This document shows, piece after piece, positions 44,014-58,964 of a DNA stretch of 64,000 bases. The stretch is from positions 434,001-498,000 of the forward strand of contig NZ_CP088017.1 of assembly GCF_021049285.1 (NCBI RefSeq), written 5' to 3'. Made by a program: the position numbers and the translations under genes. The notes beneath the pieces were generated by a model, which was given only the letters and a program-made list of their open reading frames with translations, was not told the origin of the DNA and searched no databases. This DNA is from Ruania halotolerans (GTDB lineage: Bacteria > Actinomycetota > Actinomycetes > Actinomycetales > Beutenbergiaceae). Position 1 is the stretch's first letter. Each line of letters starts with the position of its first letter.

Positions 44014-47000
44014 ATGCCCTCCGCACACCCTCGCACCTTCGTGCGCTCTACGTCTCGTCGCCGGCCCGCGCGGCTGATCGCGTCCGCCCTGTCCACCGCA
44101 CTCGTGGCTGGGCTCGCCGCGGCCGCCATCGCGACACCGGCAGCGGCGGACGATATCGCCCCGTTCGACGCGGTCGACCCGTTCATCGGCACCGAACTCG
44201 ACCTGAGCGAGAACAAGAGCAACGACGCCTACGGCAACACCTTCCCCAGCGGGGCATTGCCGTTCGGGATGGTCCAGCCCAGCCCGACGACGTACAACAC
44301 CGATCCAGATGCGCATGATCTGGTCCGGGACAAGGGTGGTTACGAGTACACCGCGGACCAGATCCGCGGCTTCGGCATGACCCGCTACTCGGGTACGGGC
44401 TGTCACGAGCGCTTCGGTGGCTACGAGTTCCCCACCACGCCGTATGCGGGTGCGCTCGACGAGGGTGTTCTCCCGGTCAGCCCGGCCGTGGACCACCGCA
44501 GCTACTTCCTCGACTTCAGCCACGACAATGAGGTGGCGCAGCCGGGCTACTACTCGGTCGAGACCGATAACGGCGTGCTCAGCGAACTGAGCTCGACCAC
44601 ACGGACCGCCGTCAGTCGCTACACCTTCGATGAGAACGGTGACAGCGCGACCCTTCTCCTTGACGCATCCGGGGCCAACAATCGGATTCACGACGTCGTG
44701 ATCGACATCGACCCGGAGAACCAGACAGTCAGCGGCTGGACCTACGGGGCCGATGTCTGCGACGACGGCACCCACTACCGTGCCTACTTCTCCACCACGT
44801 ACGACCAGCCGTTCGAGTCCTGGGGCATCTGGGACGGGGCAGAGATGACCGCGGAGGGCACCGCTGCCGAGCGGGTCACCGGCGATGAGGGAGTCGACTT
44901 CCGGCACCAGGTCGGCGGCTGGGTCACTTTCGCCGACGGCGCCGAGGTCACTGCTCGCACTGGCTTCAGCTACGTGAGCGCCGAGAACGCGGCCGAGAAC
45001 CGCGAGGTCGAGGCCGAAGATCTGAGCTTCGACGAGATCCGCTCCCAGGCGCAGGCCGCCTGGGAGGACGCCCTCGGCCTGATCGACGCCACCGGTGGCG
45101 CCGAGGATCAGCGCGTCCAGCTGTACACGGCGCTCTATCACGCACTGCTGCACCCCAATATCCATCAGGACGTCAATGGTGAGTACCGCGGCAAGGACGA
45201 CGAGATCCACACCGTCGAGGCCGGCCGGAACCACTACAAGATCTTCGCCGGCGGCGGCTGGGACATGGTCCGCAGCCACGCCCAGCTCCTCGCGATGCTC
45301 TACCCCGAGGTGGCCGACGACATCAATCAGACGATCGTGGACCAGGTGGAGCAGCGGGGGTCCTGGGAGGCCTTCCGCGGGGTGGACAGCTACCAGAATC
45401 TGATCAGCACCCTCGACGCCTTCGGCGCCACCGACTACGACCGTGAGGCTGTACTCGCTTCCATCGTGGAGAGCCAGGGACTGCCATCCGAGGACTCCAG
45501 CCGCTTCCACGCCTTCCAGTACTTCGCCACCGGCATGATCGAGAACGGCAAGGGTGGAGACGCGACTTCTCGCATTCTCGACCACGCCCTCACCGACTTC
45601 TCCGTGGCACAGCTGGCCGCACGCCTTGGCGACGAGGACGCCTATCAGACCTTCATGGCCCGGGCACAGAACTGGCGGATGGTGTTCGACCCCGAGACGC
45701 AGGAGATCCGGCCACGCTCGCGCAACAGTTTCGACCGCGGCTTCAACCTGCAAGAGCGCGGCAACCAGTTCCACCAGTCCACCGGCCACCAGTGGAACTG
45801 GCATGTGCAGCACAACCTGGGCACGCTCATTGAGATGCGCGGCGGCGCTGAGGCATCGGAGGTCGTGCTCGACCGGCTCATGACTGACCTCGACGCCGGT
45901 GCCTACGACCAGTCCGGGAACTATCTCTCGAACCAGCCCGCACTGAGCACGCCCTGGGTCTATCACTGGCTCGGTAAGCCGCACGAGACCACGGACGTGC
46001 TGTACCGGGCGATGGACGAGATGTACGGAACCGACCCTGCCGGCCTGCCCGGCAACGACGATCAGGGCTCGCTCAGTTCCTGGGCCGTATTCGCCCAGCT
46101 CGGCATCTACCCGGCGATCTACGGGACCGCGAACCTCCTGGTGACCGCGCCGATGTTCGATGCCGTCACGATCACCAGCGCCGATTCCGACCGGGTCTAC
46201 CAGCTCGACGCTCCGGGCGTCTCCGACGGCGCCCGCTACACCACGGGCCTGAGCGTGAACGGCACGGAGCAGACCGCCTCCTGGGTGGGGGAGGACTTCG
46301 CACGCGACGGCGGCACGCTCGCCTTCGAGATGTCCGCCACCCCGGGTGACTGGGGCAGCGGCGAGGGCGATGCCCCGCCGTCCTACACCGACGGAACCGA
46401 CGCCCGCAACAACGCCGGCACCGTCCCGCACGGCGCCGCGAACATGGGGTCGATGGACCTCAGCGACTGGGCGTTCTCCCGGGACGGACTGGCCGCCGAG
46501 GGTGCCGAGCCGGGTGGGCAGCTCCCGCATCCCGACCACGAAAGCCTCGTCTTCACCTGGCCCGAGACCGAACCCGGTGAGCCGGACAACTGGATTCCGC
46601 ACGGTCAGCGGGTGGAGGTCGAACCGCAGCAGGCGGCGACCGTCTCCTTCCTCGGCCTGGCCACGAACGGCCCGTCCGAGGGCGATGCCACGGTGGTCTA
46701 CACCGATGGCTCCACCCAGGAGGTGCCGGTCTTCCTGACCGACTGGGCGCAGAGCCCCGGTGGCGGCAACGCCACCGTCTTCGAGGTCGGTAACAGGGTG
46801 AACCGCAACGGAGGCATCGGCAGTGGCACTTTCCGGGTGTTCGCCACTCGCCCGGCGGCCATCGATCCGGACAAGACAGTCGAGGCCGTGACCCTGCCGG
46901 GTGCCGATCATGGCGGCCTGATGCACATCTTCGACGTCGCACTCTCACCGGAGGCGTGGACGGATCCGAATGCGCCGCTCGGTGATCCCGAGCGGGTCGT

Positions 47001-49593
47001 GCTCAACCCGAGCGCGGACCCGTCGAGTTCGCAGTATGTGACGTGGCGCTCGCGCAGCCAGAACCCGCTCACGGGTTCGGTCGAGGTGCGCCCGGCTGAC
47101 GGCGGCGAGACGCAGACGGTGACCGCGGAGCAGAAGCCCGAACGTTCCGTGGGCGGCTACCCGGCCCGGAGCCACAGTGCGCTGCTAGACGGGTTAGAGC
47201 CGGACACCGCCTACGAGTACCGGGTGGCCTCGGGAGATCGATGGAGCGAGTGGTTCACCTTCACCACTGCCGCCGAGTCCTTCGAGCCGTACACCTTCCT
47301 CTACTTCGGTGATGCGCAGAACGGCATCCCGACGATCTTCCCGCGTGCGATCGAGGCGGCGACGACCGAGCACCCGGATGCCGAGCTCGGCCTTTACGCC
47401 GGGGACCTGATCGACCACGCGCCGAACGATCAGCAGTGGACCGACTGGTTCGACGCGACGGAGCCACTGCGCACCGATCGTCAGGTACTGACCACGCTCG
47501 GCAACCACGAGATCGGCGGCCAGCCGTTCATCGAGAACTTCACGGACAGCTTCGAGTACGACGCCAACGGTCCGATTCCCGCCGATGCGCGTGAGTACGC
47601 GTCCACCCACGGTGAGCACCTGGCCGAGGTGCTCAAGGACACGGTCTACACCACGGATTACCAGGGCGTGCGGTACATCACGCTGAACGCCAACCACGAT
47701 GACATCTGCCCGATCTCGCGCCCTGCGGGGCAGCCGGACGACTGCGAAGTGAACCGGCAGGCCTGGTTCACGGCGCAGGCGCACTGGCTGGAGCGAGTGA
47801 TCCAGGAGAACCCGCACCACTGGACCGTGGTGCTGGCCCACCAGCCCATCTTCTCTGTCGGGGTCTCCGGCGGTGGCCTGCGCGACGAAGTGATGTACCG
47901 CGAGCACATCGTTCCCGTGCTGGAACGCAATGACGTGGACCTGGTGCTTCAGGGGCACGACCACACCTATGGTCGCGGCGTCCACAACGACTCCCGTACC
48001 GACACCGACGGCGTGAGCGCCGGACCGGTGTACGTGGTCGCCAACGCGGGCGAGAAGATGTACGACCTGCCCTCCGATGAGGACAACCGCTGGACGCAGA
48101 ACAACGCCGACCTGCAGGTCAGGGTCCAGGATGTGGCGACGTACCAGTCCATCCAGGTCGAGGAGAACACGCTGACCTACGAGTCGGTCGCCACGTGGGT
48201 CGCACCCCGGGGCGCGGACGGACCGGTCCAGGAAGGAGACACGGTCGATTCGTTCACTGTCACGAAGTACGAGGACGGGACCACGTGGGTCACCGATGAG
48301 GGCGTGGACGTGCCGGGCCCGGACGAGCCGGCACAGAACCTCCCGCTGCCCACGCCGGACCCCTTCGACGCCGACACCTACGGAGAGGTTGCCTGGGAGG
48401 ACGACTTCTCCGAGGACCGGCTCGAGGAGTACACCGTCTATGACGCGGGCTCGGAGCCTGCGGCCGACGTCTCGGTCGACACCGATGCAGGCCTGCTGAC
48501 GACCTCCGCCGACGATCGGGCGTGGACGCAGCTCGCGCTGCCGGCGGAGGCGGGCGAGCAGTTCGCCCTCGTGGTCGAGCCCGGAACCTTCCTCGGCTCC
48601 GGTGTGGACGAGGACAGCCTCTTCCTGGGCCTGACTGCCGGCCCGGACGAGCGGGTGCACTCCTGGTACAACCACAGCCGGGGCGAGCACGGGATCGACG
48701 TGCGGCTCGGCGGCGGCAACGACCAGCTAGCGGCCGGACCTGGCCGTCCCTATCCACTCACGTGGGAGCCCGGCGACCGGTTCGCCGTCCGGGTCGATCA
48801 CGGCGAGCTGACGGTCTGGCTTGAGCAGGACGAGGAGTGGGAGCTGATCCGGCGCGGTCTGCTCGACCTCACGATCGATGCCGAGGCCTACTCCGAGTGG
48901 GCTCCGTCCGTGGCGCTGCGCCAGGATGGTGGCGAGATGAGCCTGGACCGGATCACGCTGCTGCAGCCCTCGGACGAGACCGACCCGACCGATCCGACTG
49001 ATCCGACCGATCCCACGGACCCGACGGACCCGACTGATCCGACCGATCCGACGGACCCGACCGATCCGACAGACCCGACTGACCCGACAGACCCGACTGA
49101 CCCGGATGACGGCGATGAGCCGGGGGCCGGCGGTCCGTCCGAACAGGATCTTGTTGACGACCTGTTCGGCGCCATCGAGGCCCCGGCCACGATCGTGCGT
49201 GGTGCGGACTTCACGGTGACGGTGGGCGAGGCGCATACCGGTGCGGACGTTGCGGCGTACCTGTTCTCGGACCCGGCCGCACTCGGAACTGCCACAGTGG
49301 GCCAGGACGGGACCGCCGTGTTCATGGTGCCGGCGGATGTGTCACTGGGGGAGCACCGGCTCGCCGTCTATGGCGCCGACGGCGGTCTGATCGGCTGGGC
49401 GGTGACCACCGTCGTGGACCCCGCTGCTGACGCGGAGGATCCGGTCGACGAGAACGACTCGGGCCTGCCGCTTCCCTCCACCGGTACCGAGCTCGCCAGT
49501 GTCCTCGGCGCGGTGCTGCTCCTCCTCGTTGCCGGGGCCGCCCTCCTGGTGTGGCGCCGCCGCGGCATGGGCTCGGTGATCCGGCGCGGCTGA
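44014..49593 (+). CDS. Cell-wall-anchored GH92 mannosidase-metallophosphoesterase fusion
   Basis: The 1,859-aa protein has a signal peptide cut after A43-A-A45. Residues about 47-760 are a GH92 module (VDPFIGT, YGNTFPSGALPFGMVQPSP, GGGWDMVRSH, GNDDQGSLSSWAVF with D682/D683 as base region). About 778-982 is a linked beta module. About 985-1085 is a purple-acid-phosphatase-type Fn3 domain, and about 1090-1400 a metallophosphoesterase with D1100, GD1131, GNHE (1163-1166), H1276 and GHDH (1314-1317). A concanavalin-like module, 14 TDP repeats (1656-1697), an Ig-like domain and the sortase signal LPSTG (1820-1824) with membrane helix and basic tail follow. At the GH92 acid position (family EGNxWQY) the sequence is STGHQWNW, with Thr590 for Glu. 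GH92 enzymes that uncap mannosyl-1-phosphate-6-mannose do not need a strong acid, which fits the fused phosphatase. Confidence 0.9.
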   Translation: MPSAHPRTFVRSTSRRRPARLIASALSTALVAGLAAAAIATPAAADDIAPFDAVDPFIGTELDLSENKSNDAYGNTFPSGALPFGMVQPSPTTYNTDPDAHDLVRDKGGYEYTADQIRGFGMTRYSGTGCHERFGGYEFPTTPYAGALDEGVLPVSPAVDHRSYFLDFSHDNEVAQPGYYSVETDNGVLSELSSTTRTAVSRYTFDENGDSATLLLDASGANNRIHDVVIDIDPENQTVSGWTYGADVCDDGTHYRAYFSTTYDQPFESWGIWDGAEMTAEGTAAERVTGDEGVDFRHQVGGWVTFADGAEVTARTGFSYVSAENAAENREVEAEDLSFDEIRSQAQAAWEDALGLIDATGGAEDQRVQLYTALYHALLHPNIHQDVNGEYRGKDDEIHTVEAGRNHYKIFAGGGWDMVRSHAQLLAMLYPEVADDINQTIVDQVEQRGSWEAFRGVDSYQNLISTLDAFGATDYDREAVLASIVESQGLPSEDSSRFHAFQYFATGMIENGKGGDATSRILDHALTDFSVAQLAARLGDEDAYQTFMARAQNWRMVFDPETQEIRPRSRNSFDRGFNLQERGNQFHQSTGHQWNWHVQHNLGTLIEMRGGAEASEVVLDRLMTDLDAGAYDQSGNYLSNQPALSTPWVYHWLGKPHETTDVLYRAMDEMYGTDPAGLPGNDDQGSLSSWAVFAQLGIYPAIYGTANLLVTAPMFDAVTITSADSDRVYQLDAPGVSDGARYTTGLSVNGTEQTASWVGEDFARDGGTLAFEMSATPGDWGSGEGDAPPSYTDGTDARNNAGTVPHGAANMGSMDLSDWAFSRDGLAAEGAEPGGQLPHPDHESLVFTWPETEPGEPDNWIPHGQRVEVEPQQAATVSFLGLATNGPSEGDATVVYTDGSTQEVPVFLTDWAQSPGGGNATVFEVGNRVNRNGGIGSGTFRVFATRPAAIDPDKTVEAVTLPGADHGGLMHIFDVALSPEAWTDPNAPLGDPERVVLNPSADPSSSQYVTWRSRSQNPLTGSVEVRPADGGETQTVTAEQKPERSVGGYPARSHSALLDGLEPDTAYEYRVASGDRWSEWFTFTTAAESFEPYTFLYFGDAQNGIPTIFPRAIEAATTEHPDAELGLYAGDLIDHAPNDQQWTDWFDATEPLRTDRQVLTTLGNHEIGGQPFIENFTDSFEYDANGPIPADAREYASTHGEHLAEVLKDTVYTTDYQGVRYITLNANHDDICPISRPAGQPDDCEVNRQAWFTAQAHWLERVIQENPHHWTVVLAHQPIFSVGVSGGGLRDEVMYREHIVPVLERNDVDLVLQGHDHTYGRGVHNDSRTDTDGVSAGPVYVVANAGEKMYDLPSDEDNRWTQNNADLQVRVQDVATYQSIQVEENTLTYESVATWVAPRGADGPVQEGDTVDSFTVTKYEDGTTWVTDEGVDVPGPDEPAQNLPLPTPDPFDADTYGEVAWEDDFSEDRLEEYTVYDAGSEPAADVSVDTDAGLLTTSADDRAWTQLALPAEAGEQFALVVEPGTFLGSGVDEDSLFLGLTAGPDERVHSWYNHSRGEHGIDVRLGGGNDQLAAGPGRPYPLTWEPGDRFAVRVDHGELTVWLEQDEEWELIRRGLLDLTIDAEAYSEWAPSVALRQDGGEMSLDRITLLQPSDETDPTDPTDPTDPTDPTDPTDPTDPTDPTDPTDPTDPTDPTDPDDGDEPGAGGPSEQDLVDDLFGAIEAPATIVRGADFTVTVGEAHTGADVAAYLFSDPAALGTATVGQDGTAVFMVPADVSLGEHRLAVYGADGGLIGWAVTTVVDPAADAEDPVDENDSGLPLPSTGTELASVLGAVLLLLVAGAALLVWRRRGMGSVIRRG
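48979..49104 (+). repeat. 14 tandem TDP codon triplets (linker)
   Basis: Fourteen in-frame 9-bp units encode Thr-Asp-Pro, with silent variation at third positions. They form a rigid acidic spacer between the enzymatic modules and the wall anchor. Number of units is likely variable between strains. Confidence 0.95.
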
Positions 49594-55710: not shown

Positions 55711-58131
55711 CTACCGCTGCGGGCGTCGCCGGGTGGGCCCCCGGCGAGCCGGCTGGGTCACGGGCTCCACCTGGGGAGCCGGTGGAACTGCCCTCTGCAC
55801 GGAACCGGAGCCGACGAGTTCGACCGGTTCCCCGTGGTGAGTGGTCGTGAACGTCTCACCCTCGATGAGGCGGTAGGTGGCGAGTTCCTGACCATCGATG
55901 CGGGTGACCTCCACCTCGATCACGCGCTTCTCGCTGCGGATCCGGAATCGGAGTCGAGTCAGGGCCTCGGGCAGGCGCGGGGCGAACGAGACGTACCCCC
56001 CGTGATCGCGCATGCCTCCGAAGCCGCACGCGGCCACCTGCCAACTGCCACCCATCGCGGCGATGTGCAGGCCGTCATCGACGTTGCCGTGCAGGTCGCC
56101 CAGATCCACCAATGCCACTTCGGCCCAGTAATCGTAGGCGAGGTTCAGGTGCCCGGTCTCGGCCGCGAGCACCGCCTGGGTGGCCGCCGAGAGGGAGGAG
56201 TCTCGCACGGTGCGCGCCTCGTAGTAGGCGAAGTTGCGGGATTTCTGCTCCGGAGTGAAGAGATCACCGCGCAGCTGCATCGCGAGTACGAGGTCTGCCT
56301 GCTTGACCACCTGCTTGCGATAGATCTGGAAGTACGGGTAGTGCAGCAGGAGCGGGTAGAACTCGTCCGCCGTCTTCTCGAAGTCCCATTCGTCCTGTTT
56401 GGTGAAGTCCTCGGATTGGGCATGCACGCCGAGCTCGTCGTCGTACGGGATCGCCATCTCAGAGGCGGCACGGCGCCACATCGCGATCTCGCTCGCCGTG
56501 ACACCCAGCGCCGACGCTGTGCCCGGATTGCGTTCGCACGCGTGGGCCGCCTCGGTGAGATTCGCCTGAGCCATGACGTTCGTGTAGAGGTTGTCGTCCA
56601 CGATCGCGGTGTACTCGTCCGGGCCGGTCACGCCGTCGATGTGGAAGGCGCCGTCGAAGTGCCCCAGCGAGATCCACAGTCGTGCGGTTTCAGTGAGCAG
56701 TTCGGTGCCCGGGCCGGCATCGAACTCGTCGTCTCCGGTGGCTGCCACGTACCGCGCCGTGGCGTTCGCCACGGCGGAGTTCACGTGGAATGCCGCCGTG
56801 CCCGCGGGCCAGTATCCGGAACACTCCTTGCCGGTGATGGTCCGCCATGGGAACGCCGCTCCCGCCAACCCGAGTTCGGTGGCCCGTGCCCGCGCCTCTG
56901 GCAGCGTGTCCCGCCGCCAGAGCAGGTGGTCCCGGGCCGCCGAGGGCATCGTGTAGGTGAGCATCGGCAGGGCGAACAGGTCGGCATCCCAGAAGGTGTG
57001 CCCGTCATAGCCGATCCCGCTCAAGCCCTTGGCGCCGAGACCCTGGCCTTCCGCACGGGCTGAGCACTGCAGCACGTGGAACATCGAAACCCGCACCGCC
57101 TGTTGCAGGCCCGGATCGCCGTCGATCTCGACATCGGCGTGCTGCCAGAAGTCGTCCAGGTAGGCACGCTGCTTCTCCAGCAGTTCGTCCCACCCGATGA
57201 GCTTTCCGACGGCGAGCGCTGCTTCCACCTGATCGCGCAGCGCCGGGGTGGACCTGCGGTGCGACCAGCCGTAGGACAGGTACTTGACCATGCGCAACTT
57301 ACTGCCCTTGGGCAGCTGAGCAGTGACCGTATACCGGGCAAGGTCCCCGCTCGCCTCGATCGTGGTCTGTGCCCCCTGGGGAACTTCAAGCACATGATCC
57401 ATCCCGGCCGCCATCCGCAACTTGCTGCGCCGGGTGCGGTGCATCAACACGGCCTGCTGCCCGCGGGCGCCCGAACCCTCAGACTTCAGCGGCCGGTCCA
57501 GTACGGCGGCATCACGCGGATCTGAGGACGGAGTCGCGTTCTGCTCGTTGGCCAGCAGGTCGGAGTACAGGGCGAGGTAAACGTTGTCGTCGAGGGCCTC
57601 CACCTCGTAGTGGATGGCGGCCAGCGAGCGGTGCGCGAAGGAGACGAGGCGCCGAGAGGTCACCCGCACCGACTGCCCGTTCGGTGAGGTCCATTCCGTG
57701 CTCCGGTCGAGCGTGCCGCTGCGCAGATCGAGGGCTCGCTCATGGCTGTGCGTGGTGCCGTAGCGCAGGTCGAACGGGGAGTCCCCGACGAACAGTCGGA
57801 TCAGCTTGCCGTCGGTGACGTTGACGACGGTCTCACCGGATTCGGGAAATCCGTAGCCGGCTTCGGCGTGCGGGAGCGGTCGCTGTTCGTAGAAACCATT
57901 GATGTAGGTCCCCGGTTCCACCCGCGGTTCGCCCTCCTCGAGGGAACCGCGCATTCCGAAGTGGCCGTTGGAGAGGGTGAAGAGGGTCTCACTGGCGGCC
58001 ACATCGTCGAGCAGCAGACCGCTTCGGGTGAGCTTCCATGGATGGATGCCGTATCCGCGGCGATGGTCGGCGTACTCGGTGGAATCCCCCGCCTCGCCGG
58101 TGTGCGCGTGCTGGCCGTGTCCATTCGTCAT
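55711..58131 (-). CDS. GH65 disaccharide phosphorylase
   Basis: The 806-aa protein contains the GH65 N-terminal beta-sandwich, the (alpha/alpha)6 barrel (GYDGHTFWDADLFALPML) with the catalytic acid E506 in GPDEY, the phosphate-binding HGNVDDGLHIAAMGGSW, and the C-terminal sandwich. It cleaves an alpha-glucoside such as trehalose, maltose or kojibiose with phosphate, to give beta-glucose-1-phosphate. The overlap of four bases with the beta-phosphoglucomutase gene confirms the pathway. A BCCT compatible-solute transporter follows upstream on the same strand. Confidence 0.92.
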   Translation of the reverse strand: MTNGHGQHAHTGEAGDSTEYADHRRGYGIHPWKLTRSGLLLDDVAASETLFTLSNGHFGMRGSLEEGEPRVEPGTYINGFYEQRPLPHAEAGYGFPESGETVVNVTDGKLIRLFVGDSPFDLRYGTTHSHERALDLRSGTLDRSTEWTSPNGQSVRVTSRRLVSFAHRSLAAIHYEVEALDDNVYLALYSDLLANEQNATPSSDPRDAAVLDRPLKSEGSGARGQQAVLMHRTRRSKLRMAAGMDHVLEVPQGAQTTIEASGDLARYTVTAQLPKGSKLRMVKYLSYGWSHRRSTPALRDQVEAALAVGKLIGWDELLEKQRAYLDDFWQHADVEIDGDPGLQQAVRVSMFHVLQCSARAEGQGLGAKGLSGIGYDGHTFWDADLFALPMLTYTMPSAARDHLLWRRDTLPEARARATELGLAGAAFPWRTITGKECSGYWPAGTAAFHVNSAVANATARYVAATGDDEFDAGPGTELLTETARLWISLGHFDGAFHIDGVTGPDEYTAIVDDNLYTNVMAQANLTEAAHACERNPGTASALGVTASEIAMWRRAASEMAIPYDDELGVHAQSEDFTKQDEWDFEKTADEFYPLLLHYPYFQIYRKQVVKQADLVLAMQLRGDLFTPEQKSRNFAYYEARTVRDSSLSAATQAVLAAETGHLNLAYDYWAEVALVDLGDLHGNVDDGLHIAAMGGSWQVAACGFGGMRDHGGYVSFAPRLPEALTRLRFRIRSEKRVIEVEVTRIDGQELATYRLIEGETFTTTHHGEPVELVGSGSVQRAVPPAPQVEPVTQPARRGPTRRRPQR

Positions 58132-58964
58132 CGGCTCTCCCGGTTGGTCTCGGCGGAGTCGGCCAGGTCTGCCCCGGTGGCAGGAATCGCGCCGCCGGGC
58201 GGTTGTTCCAGCGACGATCGGTCCGGGATGAGTTCGCCCAGGTCGCCGACCACGAGATCGGCGCCCGCTTCGGAGAGGGCATGCGCGTGGCCGAGCCGGT
58301 CCACGCCGATCACGTAGCCGAACTCGCCAGCCCGGCCGGCTTCGACTCCAGCGATCGCGTCTTCGATCACCACGGCGTGCTCAGGAGATATGTCGAGCGC
58401 CGCGGCACCGGCGAGGAAGGTATCCGGTGCCGGTTTGCCCGGCAGGGAGCGCTCCGCGGCCACCACGCCGTCGATCCGGGCGTCGAACTGATCGATCAGA
58501 CCGGCCGCCGTGAGCACGGCGACGGCGTTGGCAGAAGCGGTGACGACCGCCGTCGGGATCCCGGCCTCGCGCACGGCGGCGAGGTAGGCAACGGAACCGG
58601 GGAAGGTCTCCACGCCGCGCTCATCCAGGATGCGCCGCACGTCCGCGTCCTTGCGGTTGCCGATGCCGCACACGGTCTCCGCGGACGGCGGGTCGTCGGG
58701 GGAGCCCTCGGGTGGGGTGATACCCCGCGACGTGAGGAAGGTGCGCACCCCGTCGTACCGCCGCCGGCCGTCCACATGGGCGGCATAGTCCGACTCGGTG
58801 AACTCGGCGAGCCCTTGTGCGGTCAGGATCGCATCGAAGGTCTGCTTCCACGCCGCGTAGTGGAGCGTGGCGGTCCTGGTGAGCACGCCGTCCAGGTCGA
58901 ACAGGCATGCCCGGATGTGCGAGGGCAGGCCGAGACGACGGAGCGTTTCGGGGAGAGGGCTCAT
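58128..58964 (-). CDS. pgmB: Beta-phosphoglucomutase (HAD-IA)
   Basis: The 278-aa protein is a HAD phosphatase fold with nucleophile D23 and acid D25 in FDLDGVLT, VVTASAN, GKPAPDTF and EDAIAGVEAG, as in PgmB. It converts beta-glucose-1-phosphate to glucose-6-phosphate. The stop overlaps the GH65 ATG by four bases, so phosphorylase product is passed directly into glycolysis. The C-terminal 25 residues are a Pro/Ala-rich extension. Confidence 0.9.
   Translation of the reverse strand: MSPLPETLRRLGLPSHIRACLFDLDGVLTRTATLHYAAWKQTFDAILTAQGLAEFTESDYAAHVDGRRRYDGVRTFLTSRGITPPEGSPDDPPSAETVCGIGNRKDADVRRILDERGVETFPGSVAYLAAVREAGIPTAVVTASANAVAVLTAAGLIDQFDARIDGVVAAERSLPGKPAPDTFLAGAAALDISPEHAVVIEDAIAGVEAGRAGEFGYVIGVDRLGHAHALSEAGADLVVGDLGELIPDRSSLEQPPGGAIPATGADLADSAETNRESR

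Follow-up and report, generated by a model that had tools for sequence, protein, structure and literature searches.

The described systems closest to the gene analysed here come from yeast-mannan degradation and from family GH92 itself. CcMan5 (GH92) of Cellulosimicrobium cellulans (PDB 2xsg, 4aq0) is reported, in an excerpt of the source, to target mannosyl phosphodiesters (PMC5930347), and in Bacteroides thetaiotaomicron, according to an excerpted review (PMC10154615), a GH38 enzyme takes off phosphate-attached mannose and phosphatases take off the phosphate. Our proposal for the present gene comprises the same two chemical steps, whereas in the yeast-mannan use excerpted there they fall to separate enzymes and the first of them to a GH38. 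To our knowledge, uncapping and dephosphorylation are known only as separate enzymes, and no description of a one-chain enzyme with both steps was found in the open-access literature searched. CcMan5 resembles the chain presented below in its GH92 fold, its Gln in the acid column and its base Asp, but it is distant in sequence, and its five full-length homologs each carry three CBM6 stretches and no phosphatase. Bt3990, BT3130 and NnGH92 share the fold, the base and the conserved -1 subsite residues; unlike the present chain they have Glu as acid, and the excerpts of their descriptions mention no phosphatase domain. Finally, stand-alone secreted actinobacterial PAP-type metallophosphoesterases are PF16656/PF00149-type chains related to the phosphoesterase studied here but without GH92, and some have an anchor of their own.

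A GH92-phosphoesterase fusion on the cell wall

The gene lies in a 64,000-nt stretch of Ruania halotolerans contig NZ_CP088017.1 (the window, to whose positions the coordinates in Table 1 refer) and forms a single uninterrupted reading frame from an ATG at 44014. Four Pfam domains in this one frame, together with LPXTG-type anchor matches, bear out the initial annotation of a GH92 domain and a phosphoesterase on one secreted, sortase-anchored chain. Both GH92 families (PF17678 and PF07971) score above their cut-offs, and the fusion gene is the sole GH92 of a genome assembled as one contig of 4.27 Mb. The C-terminal anchor signal matches TIGR01167 at 16.0 bits against a cut-off of 15.9 and NF058582 at 24.1 bits, under its cut-off of 27 (NCBIfam, residues 1819-1850 in both cases), and the same genome encodes two sortases. 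The beta-rich domain that follows the GH92 module also follows GH92 in other actinobacterial chains, and the C-terminal domain (1441-1640) may be lectin-like. Predicted structures were poor (mean pLDDT 53.5 for the phosphoesterase part and 52.5 for the GH92 part) and were set aside.

Table 1. Features of the fusion gene in the 64,000-nt window.
Feature	Position	Strand	Basis
Whole gene: anchored, secreted GH92-phosphoesterase fusion, 1859 aa	44014..49593	+	translation, Pfam, NCBIfam, orthologs
Signal peptide region, residues 1-45	44014..44148	+	translation, judged by eye
GH92 N-terminal beta-sandwich GH92N (PF17678), residues 54-319	44173..44970	+	Pfam
GH92 catalytic barrel (PF07971), residues 325-774	44986..46335	+	Pfam
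Gln588 codon, general-acid position (Bt3990 Glu533, CcMan5 Gln536)	45775..45777	+	alignments, profile comparison
Asp683 codon, general base (Bt3990 Asp644, BT3130 Asp637)	46060..46062	+	alignments; PMC10167667, PMC5930347 (excerpts)
Beta-rich domain after GH92, residues 791-985, no Pfam name	46384..46968	+	sequence comparison
Pur_ac_phosph_N (PF16656), residues 992-1085	46987..47268	+	Pfam
Metallophos (PF00149), residues 1099-1319, GDAQ/GDLID/GNHE/AHQP/GHDH	47308..47970	+	Pfam, motifs
200-residue C-terminal domain, residues 1441-1640, no Pfam match	48334..48933	+	sequence comparison
(DPT)n repeat stalk, residues ~1656-1697	48979..49104	+	sequence
LPSTG cell-wall sorting signal, residues 1819-1850	49468..49563	+	NCBIfam

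The phosphoesterase module has PF00149 above cut-off and the five metal motifs of a calcineurin-like metallophosphoesterase (GDAQ 1099, GDLID 1130, GNHE 1163, AHQP 1275, GHDH 1314). True purple acid phosphatases carry a Tyr ligand in motif II (GDxxY), where this chain reads GDLID, and it is thus not a purple acid phosphatase sensu stricto. The earlier statement that all metal motifs are intact is therefore right for a calcineurin-like phosphoesterase, but motif I has the form D-x-Q and motif II lacks the purple-acid-phosphatase Tyr. No significant relative emerged among the solved structures searched with the phosphoesterase sequence, and matches to this PAP-type family (E 1e-12 or better, fusions counted) occur in 25 of the 297 genomes of the order. 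Tandem pairs of PAP-type phosphoesterases were also seen (L204:4839-11755, L205:1-3812, L206:8324-13208 and L207:4702-10865), with an LPXTG motif near the C-terminus of one chain in three of the four pairs.

Ten window neighbours of the gene were scanned, among them an amidohydrolase, a YetF-like and a photolyase gene, and none is a mannan gene. A GH65 gene in the window adjoins a HAD-family gene (55711-58964, minus strand), an arrangement usual for a disaccharide phosphorylase and a beta-phosphoglucomutase. Farther away in the same genome, a tandem pair of GH76 genes stands beside ABC-transport genes (L243:8586-11010; contig C1 ~188.6-191.0 kb), a possible locus for alpha-mannan use at ~290 kb from the window gene.

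Acid and base residues of the GH92 module

The acid Glu was said to be missing from the GH92 module, with Thr590 in its place by hand alignment. Its absence is confirmed by alignment to solved GH92 structures, which puts no Glu at the acid position, but the residue found there is Gln588, within QFHQSTGHQW, two residues ahead of the one named. Gln588 stands opposite the structure's Glu in four of the five phmmer alignments listed (7zgm, 6f91, 2wvy, 2wvx); in the Bt3990 alignment F-T-E-G-N lies, free of gaps, opposite F-H-Q-S-T and hence Glu533 opposite Gln588, Glu533 being the general acid of Bt3990 according to excerpted sources (PMC10167667, PMC5930347). In the fifth alignment, to 6f8z (BT3130), the motif is gapped and the Glu faces a gap next to Thr590, and a gapped alignment of this type may have been the source of the error. 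A MAFFT alignment of 78 rows and a profile-profile comparison against 35 Glu-type chains, i.e. chains with Glu in the acid column, likewise place Gln588 at that column without a gap, which together with the four structure alignments rules out Thr590 as the acid position.

The Asp pair in GNDDQG, taken earlier to be retained, is so in part: Asp683 corresponds to the catalytic base of Bt3990 and BT3130 and is kept in all 81 rows of an extended set, but Asn681 replaces Bt3990 Asp642, as in BT3130. Trp416, Asp417 and Arg420 are each conserved in more than 97% of the 78 rows.

With Gln588 rather than Thr590 at the acid position, the parallel to CcMan5 becomes stronger. In 2xsg the segment is GLYQGTLWQYHW, in which Gln takes chain position 536 by manual count, and a profile comparison sets this Gln536 opposite Gln588; both enzymes thus combine Gln in the acid column with a retained base. 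CcMan5 itself is represented in the genomes by a near-identical homolog (L158/L166, 1664 bits to 2xsg). As the closest relative of the window GH92 it was rejected, with 107 bits against 244 for BT3130.

Across the 81 rows, which include class-wide relatives with near-duplicates removed by hand, the acid column reads Glu in 51 and Gln in 30 and holds no other letter. In the MAFFT set Gln occurs in 26/26 rows of the window clade and in 0/51 Glu-type rows, a 27th Gln row (L001) being the window itself, and the 26 Gln rows form one clade with 100% SH-aLRT. The 81-row tree, built with the acid column taken out, implies three Glu/Gln changes: in this clade, in the CcMan5 group and in a third Gln group of class-level relatives (L224, L233, L234 and L236; motif FAQGT[AS]ATYTW), which sits within the Glu types at 100% SH-aLRT. 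The window clade and the CcMan5 group stand apart in the trees; since an AU test does not reject a joint clade (p 0.302), we dropped the firm claim that their Gln residues had separate origins. Judged from these alignments and trees, Gln588 is the mark of a distinct GH92 clade.

Among other columns, Thr fills position 590 throughout the three Gln groups (24/24, 4/4 and 2/2) and is also present there in 11 of the 51 Glu-type rows. At position 92, two Gln groups have Thr and CcMan5 has Arg, and Glu types never have Thr and most often have Asp (23/51). Both patterns are exploratory, that at 590 having been picked among ~740 columns. Position 92 lies, by manual count, seven residues ahead of Trp67, the +1 roof residue of BT3130.

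Recurrent phosphatase fusions in the Gln-type clade

We counted 126 distinct GH92 domains among the matches listed, 89 of them Glu-type and 37 with Gln (28 in the window clade, 4 in the third Gln group and 5 CcMan5-like), leaving uncounted the fragments in genomes G123 and G564 and the split gene of G775. A complete chain was taken as a stop-to-stop open frame inside the fetched stretch; 21 domains, mostly of long chains, ran past it (20 Glu-type, 1 of the Gln clade), and scanning their whole chains left the outcome the same. By Pfam, 15 of the 28 complete chains in the Gln clade have a phosphatase domain, 14 times as Pur_ac_phosph_N plus Metallophos and once as PAP2, compared with 0/89 complete Glu-type chains (0/35, 0/34 and 0/20 in the successive sets). 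Of the new evidence, this contrast is the strongest. As Pfam finds no phosphatase domain in the remaining 13 of these 28 chains, the fusion is common, not obligatory. Nor did Pfam detect one in the five CcMan5-like chains, or in the four chains and five scanned neighbours of the third Gln group. Two Glu-type GH92 chains, among the 20 fetched whole, include a GH76 mannanase domain within their reading frame.

The fused phosphatases differ in kind. In L086 and L130 (genomes G264 and G569) the phosphoesterase is placed after an extra domain and is no more than distantly related to that of the window (42-56 bits between the L086 module and the window-type ones); in a phosphoesterase tree it joins stand-alone members of another lineage, in a group of nine rows with 98% SH-aLRT, long branches being flagged. 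In G445 (L131:6100-13500, minus strand) a PAP2 domain with the motifs KAAYNYKRP, PSGH and GFHYPLD lies upstream of a Gln-type GH92 in one 2507-aa frame. Because the L086/L130 phosphoesterase belongs to another lineage and L131 carries PAP2, phosphatases were fused to the Gln clade at least three separate times, from two PAP-type lineages and one PAP2, with L241 as a possible fourth case. In the 81-row GH92 tree, the Gln clade and its stem account for 20.3% of the total length, from which the chance of three fusions falling in this clade is ~0.008; this tree-length estimate is rough and takes no account of the query's own clade having been sampled most deeply. Since all fusions lie in one Gln clade, no second Gln origin replicates the link to phosphatases.

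The window-type fusion (GH92, beta domain and PAP-type module in one frame) is real and occurs in at least 12 species of at least two orders (G000, G003, G006, G012, G013, G285, G477, G767, G797, Phycicoccus L062, Myceligenerans L063 and L065), where loci found by the family, order and class searches are counted among the matches listed, some searches having scored the best 2 to 5 candidates per genome. Three of the eight genus-sample genomes, the window's own included, have the full-length chain. The C-terminal domain accompanies 11 of the 12 fusions, spread over two frames in G013 and missing in G797, and in G775 the same fusion gene is broken into several frames (L242:6650-10854 and upstream). 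Two of the species, G767 (76% identity across GH92) and G797, belong to the window's class but not to its order, so that the gene may move between lineages. Among three congeneric orthologs, dN/dS is 0.12-0.13 for the GH92 and 0.08-0.11 for the PAP-type module, indicating purifying selection on both.

In G797, the ortholog (L241:4489-11878, a Gln-type GH92-PAP fusion) is divergent to a GH81 beta-1,3-glucanase gene. No window-type PAP gene was seen around unfused genes in the fetched stretches of 2 to 10 kb on each side. G276, the one genome in which neighbours of Glu-type genes were scanned, has a stand-alone window-type PAP gene 3 kb from two Glu-type GH92 genes, and an unfused Gln-type GH92 elsewhere. 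This position near Glu-type genes ties the PAP-type module to mannan use, but its partnership with Gln types is not exclusive.

Proposed reaction and competing readings

Taken together, we consider it probable that the gene encodes a cell-wall-anchored bifunctional phosphomannan enzyme, whose GH92 module cleaves an alpha-mannosyl phosphodiester and whose PAP-type module then dephosphorylates the product. The GH92 module would be a CcMan5-like enzyme that hydrolyses alpha-mannosyl phosphodiesters with inversion, its Asp683 activating water against C1 of a Ca2+-held capping mannose. As the leaving phosphate ester would need no protonation, Gln588 could be tolerated in place of the acid Glu, while the intact base would still be required. 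The metallophosphoesterase on the same chain would dephosphorylate the freed 6-phosphomannose end, yielding neutral mannan for mannanases and inorganic phosphate. Uncapping followed by dephosphorylation in one chain had been put forward before; its Thr590 detail was wrong, but comparative support for the idea is strong, with the same Gln as CcMan5 and at least three fusions in the Gln clade as against 0/89 in Glu-type chains. The analysis itself establishes the domain architecture, the residue identities, conservation, purifying selection and repeated fusion; the two activities, the sequence in which they act and a fungal mannan substrate are what we infer from these comparisons.

The chain might instead carry out both steps on another alpha-mannosyl-phosphate polymer, e.g. 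a bacterial or algal glycopolymer, since no sequence feature fixes the +1 sugar and the GH92 +1 subsite is variable according to an excerpted source (PMC5930347). The GH81 gene beside one ortholog and the GH76 genes of the window genome point, circumstantially, to fungal walls, and we regard another polymer as unlikely.

We give little credence to a GH92 module that is a catalytically dead mannan-binding domain and merely brings the phosphatase to its substrate. Exchanging the acid Glu for Gln is a classical acid-killing change, and for the Ala and Gln acid variants of Bt3990 an excerpted source reports strongly reduced activity on alpha-1,2-mannobiose, with some left (PMC10167667). However, Asp683, Trp416, Asp417 and Arg420 are retained, dN/dS is ~0.12, the acid column allows E or Q only, and CcMan5, with the same Gln, is reported in excerpt to act on mannosyl phosphodiesters (PMC5930347).

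Very improbable, in our view, is an ordinary alpha-mannosidase that uses another residue as acid and became joined fortuitously to a phosphatase for general phosphate scavenging: secreted PAP-type chains without GH92 are indeed widespread (25/297 genomes of the order, fusions counted) and one stands beside Glu-type GH92 genes, but the separate fusions, at least three, fall in a Gln clade of ~20% of the GH92 tree length and none in the 89 Glu-type chains.

Least credible of all is the reverse order, in which the phosphoesterase, as a phosphodiesterase, frees alpha-mannose-1-phosphate and the Gln-type GH92 hydrolyses it, again with no need of an acid: the GH92 chemistry would be similar and metallophosphoesterases of this fold include phosphodiesterases, but PAP2, a family that consists mainly of phosphomonoesterases, supplies one of the fused partners, and some Gln-type GH92 chains have no phosphatase. 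CcMan5 is, moreover, reported in excerpt to act on the diester (PMC5930347).

Returning to the enzyme that uncaps and then dephosphorylates phosphomannan, we lean slightly towards a wider generalisation: a GH92 clade with Gln at the acid position, devoted to mannosyl-phosphodiester uncapping, may have recruited phosphatases of two folds (calcineurin-like and PAP2 being different folds) at least three times to give self-contained phosphomannan-clearing enzymes, with Q-x-T (Gln at the acid position, Thr two residues on) as a signature that would predict mannosyl-phosphate activity across GH92. If this is true, a one-letter rule, Gln for Glu, would pick out mannosyl-phosphate hydrolases from proteins annotated as alpha-mannosidases, and mannosyl-phosphate could be cleared from yeast glycans by a one-chain enzyme. 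CcMan5 is used to uncap yeast-made lysosomal enzymes, and the GH92 module alone would offer an alternative to it for this purpose. An excerpted source considers both acid and enzymatic uncapping (PMC5992200). Separate phosphatases repeatedly fused to one glycosidase clade would also be a clear example of how fused genes betray successive steps.
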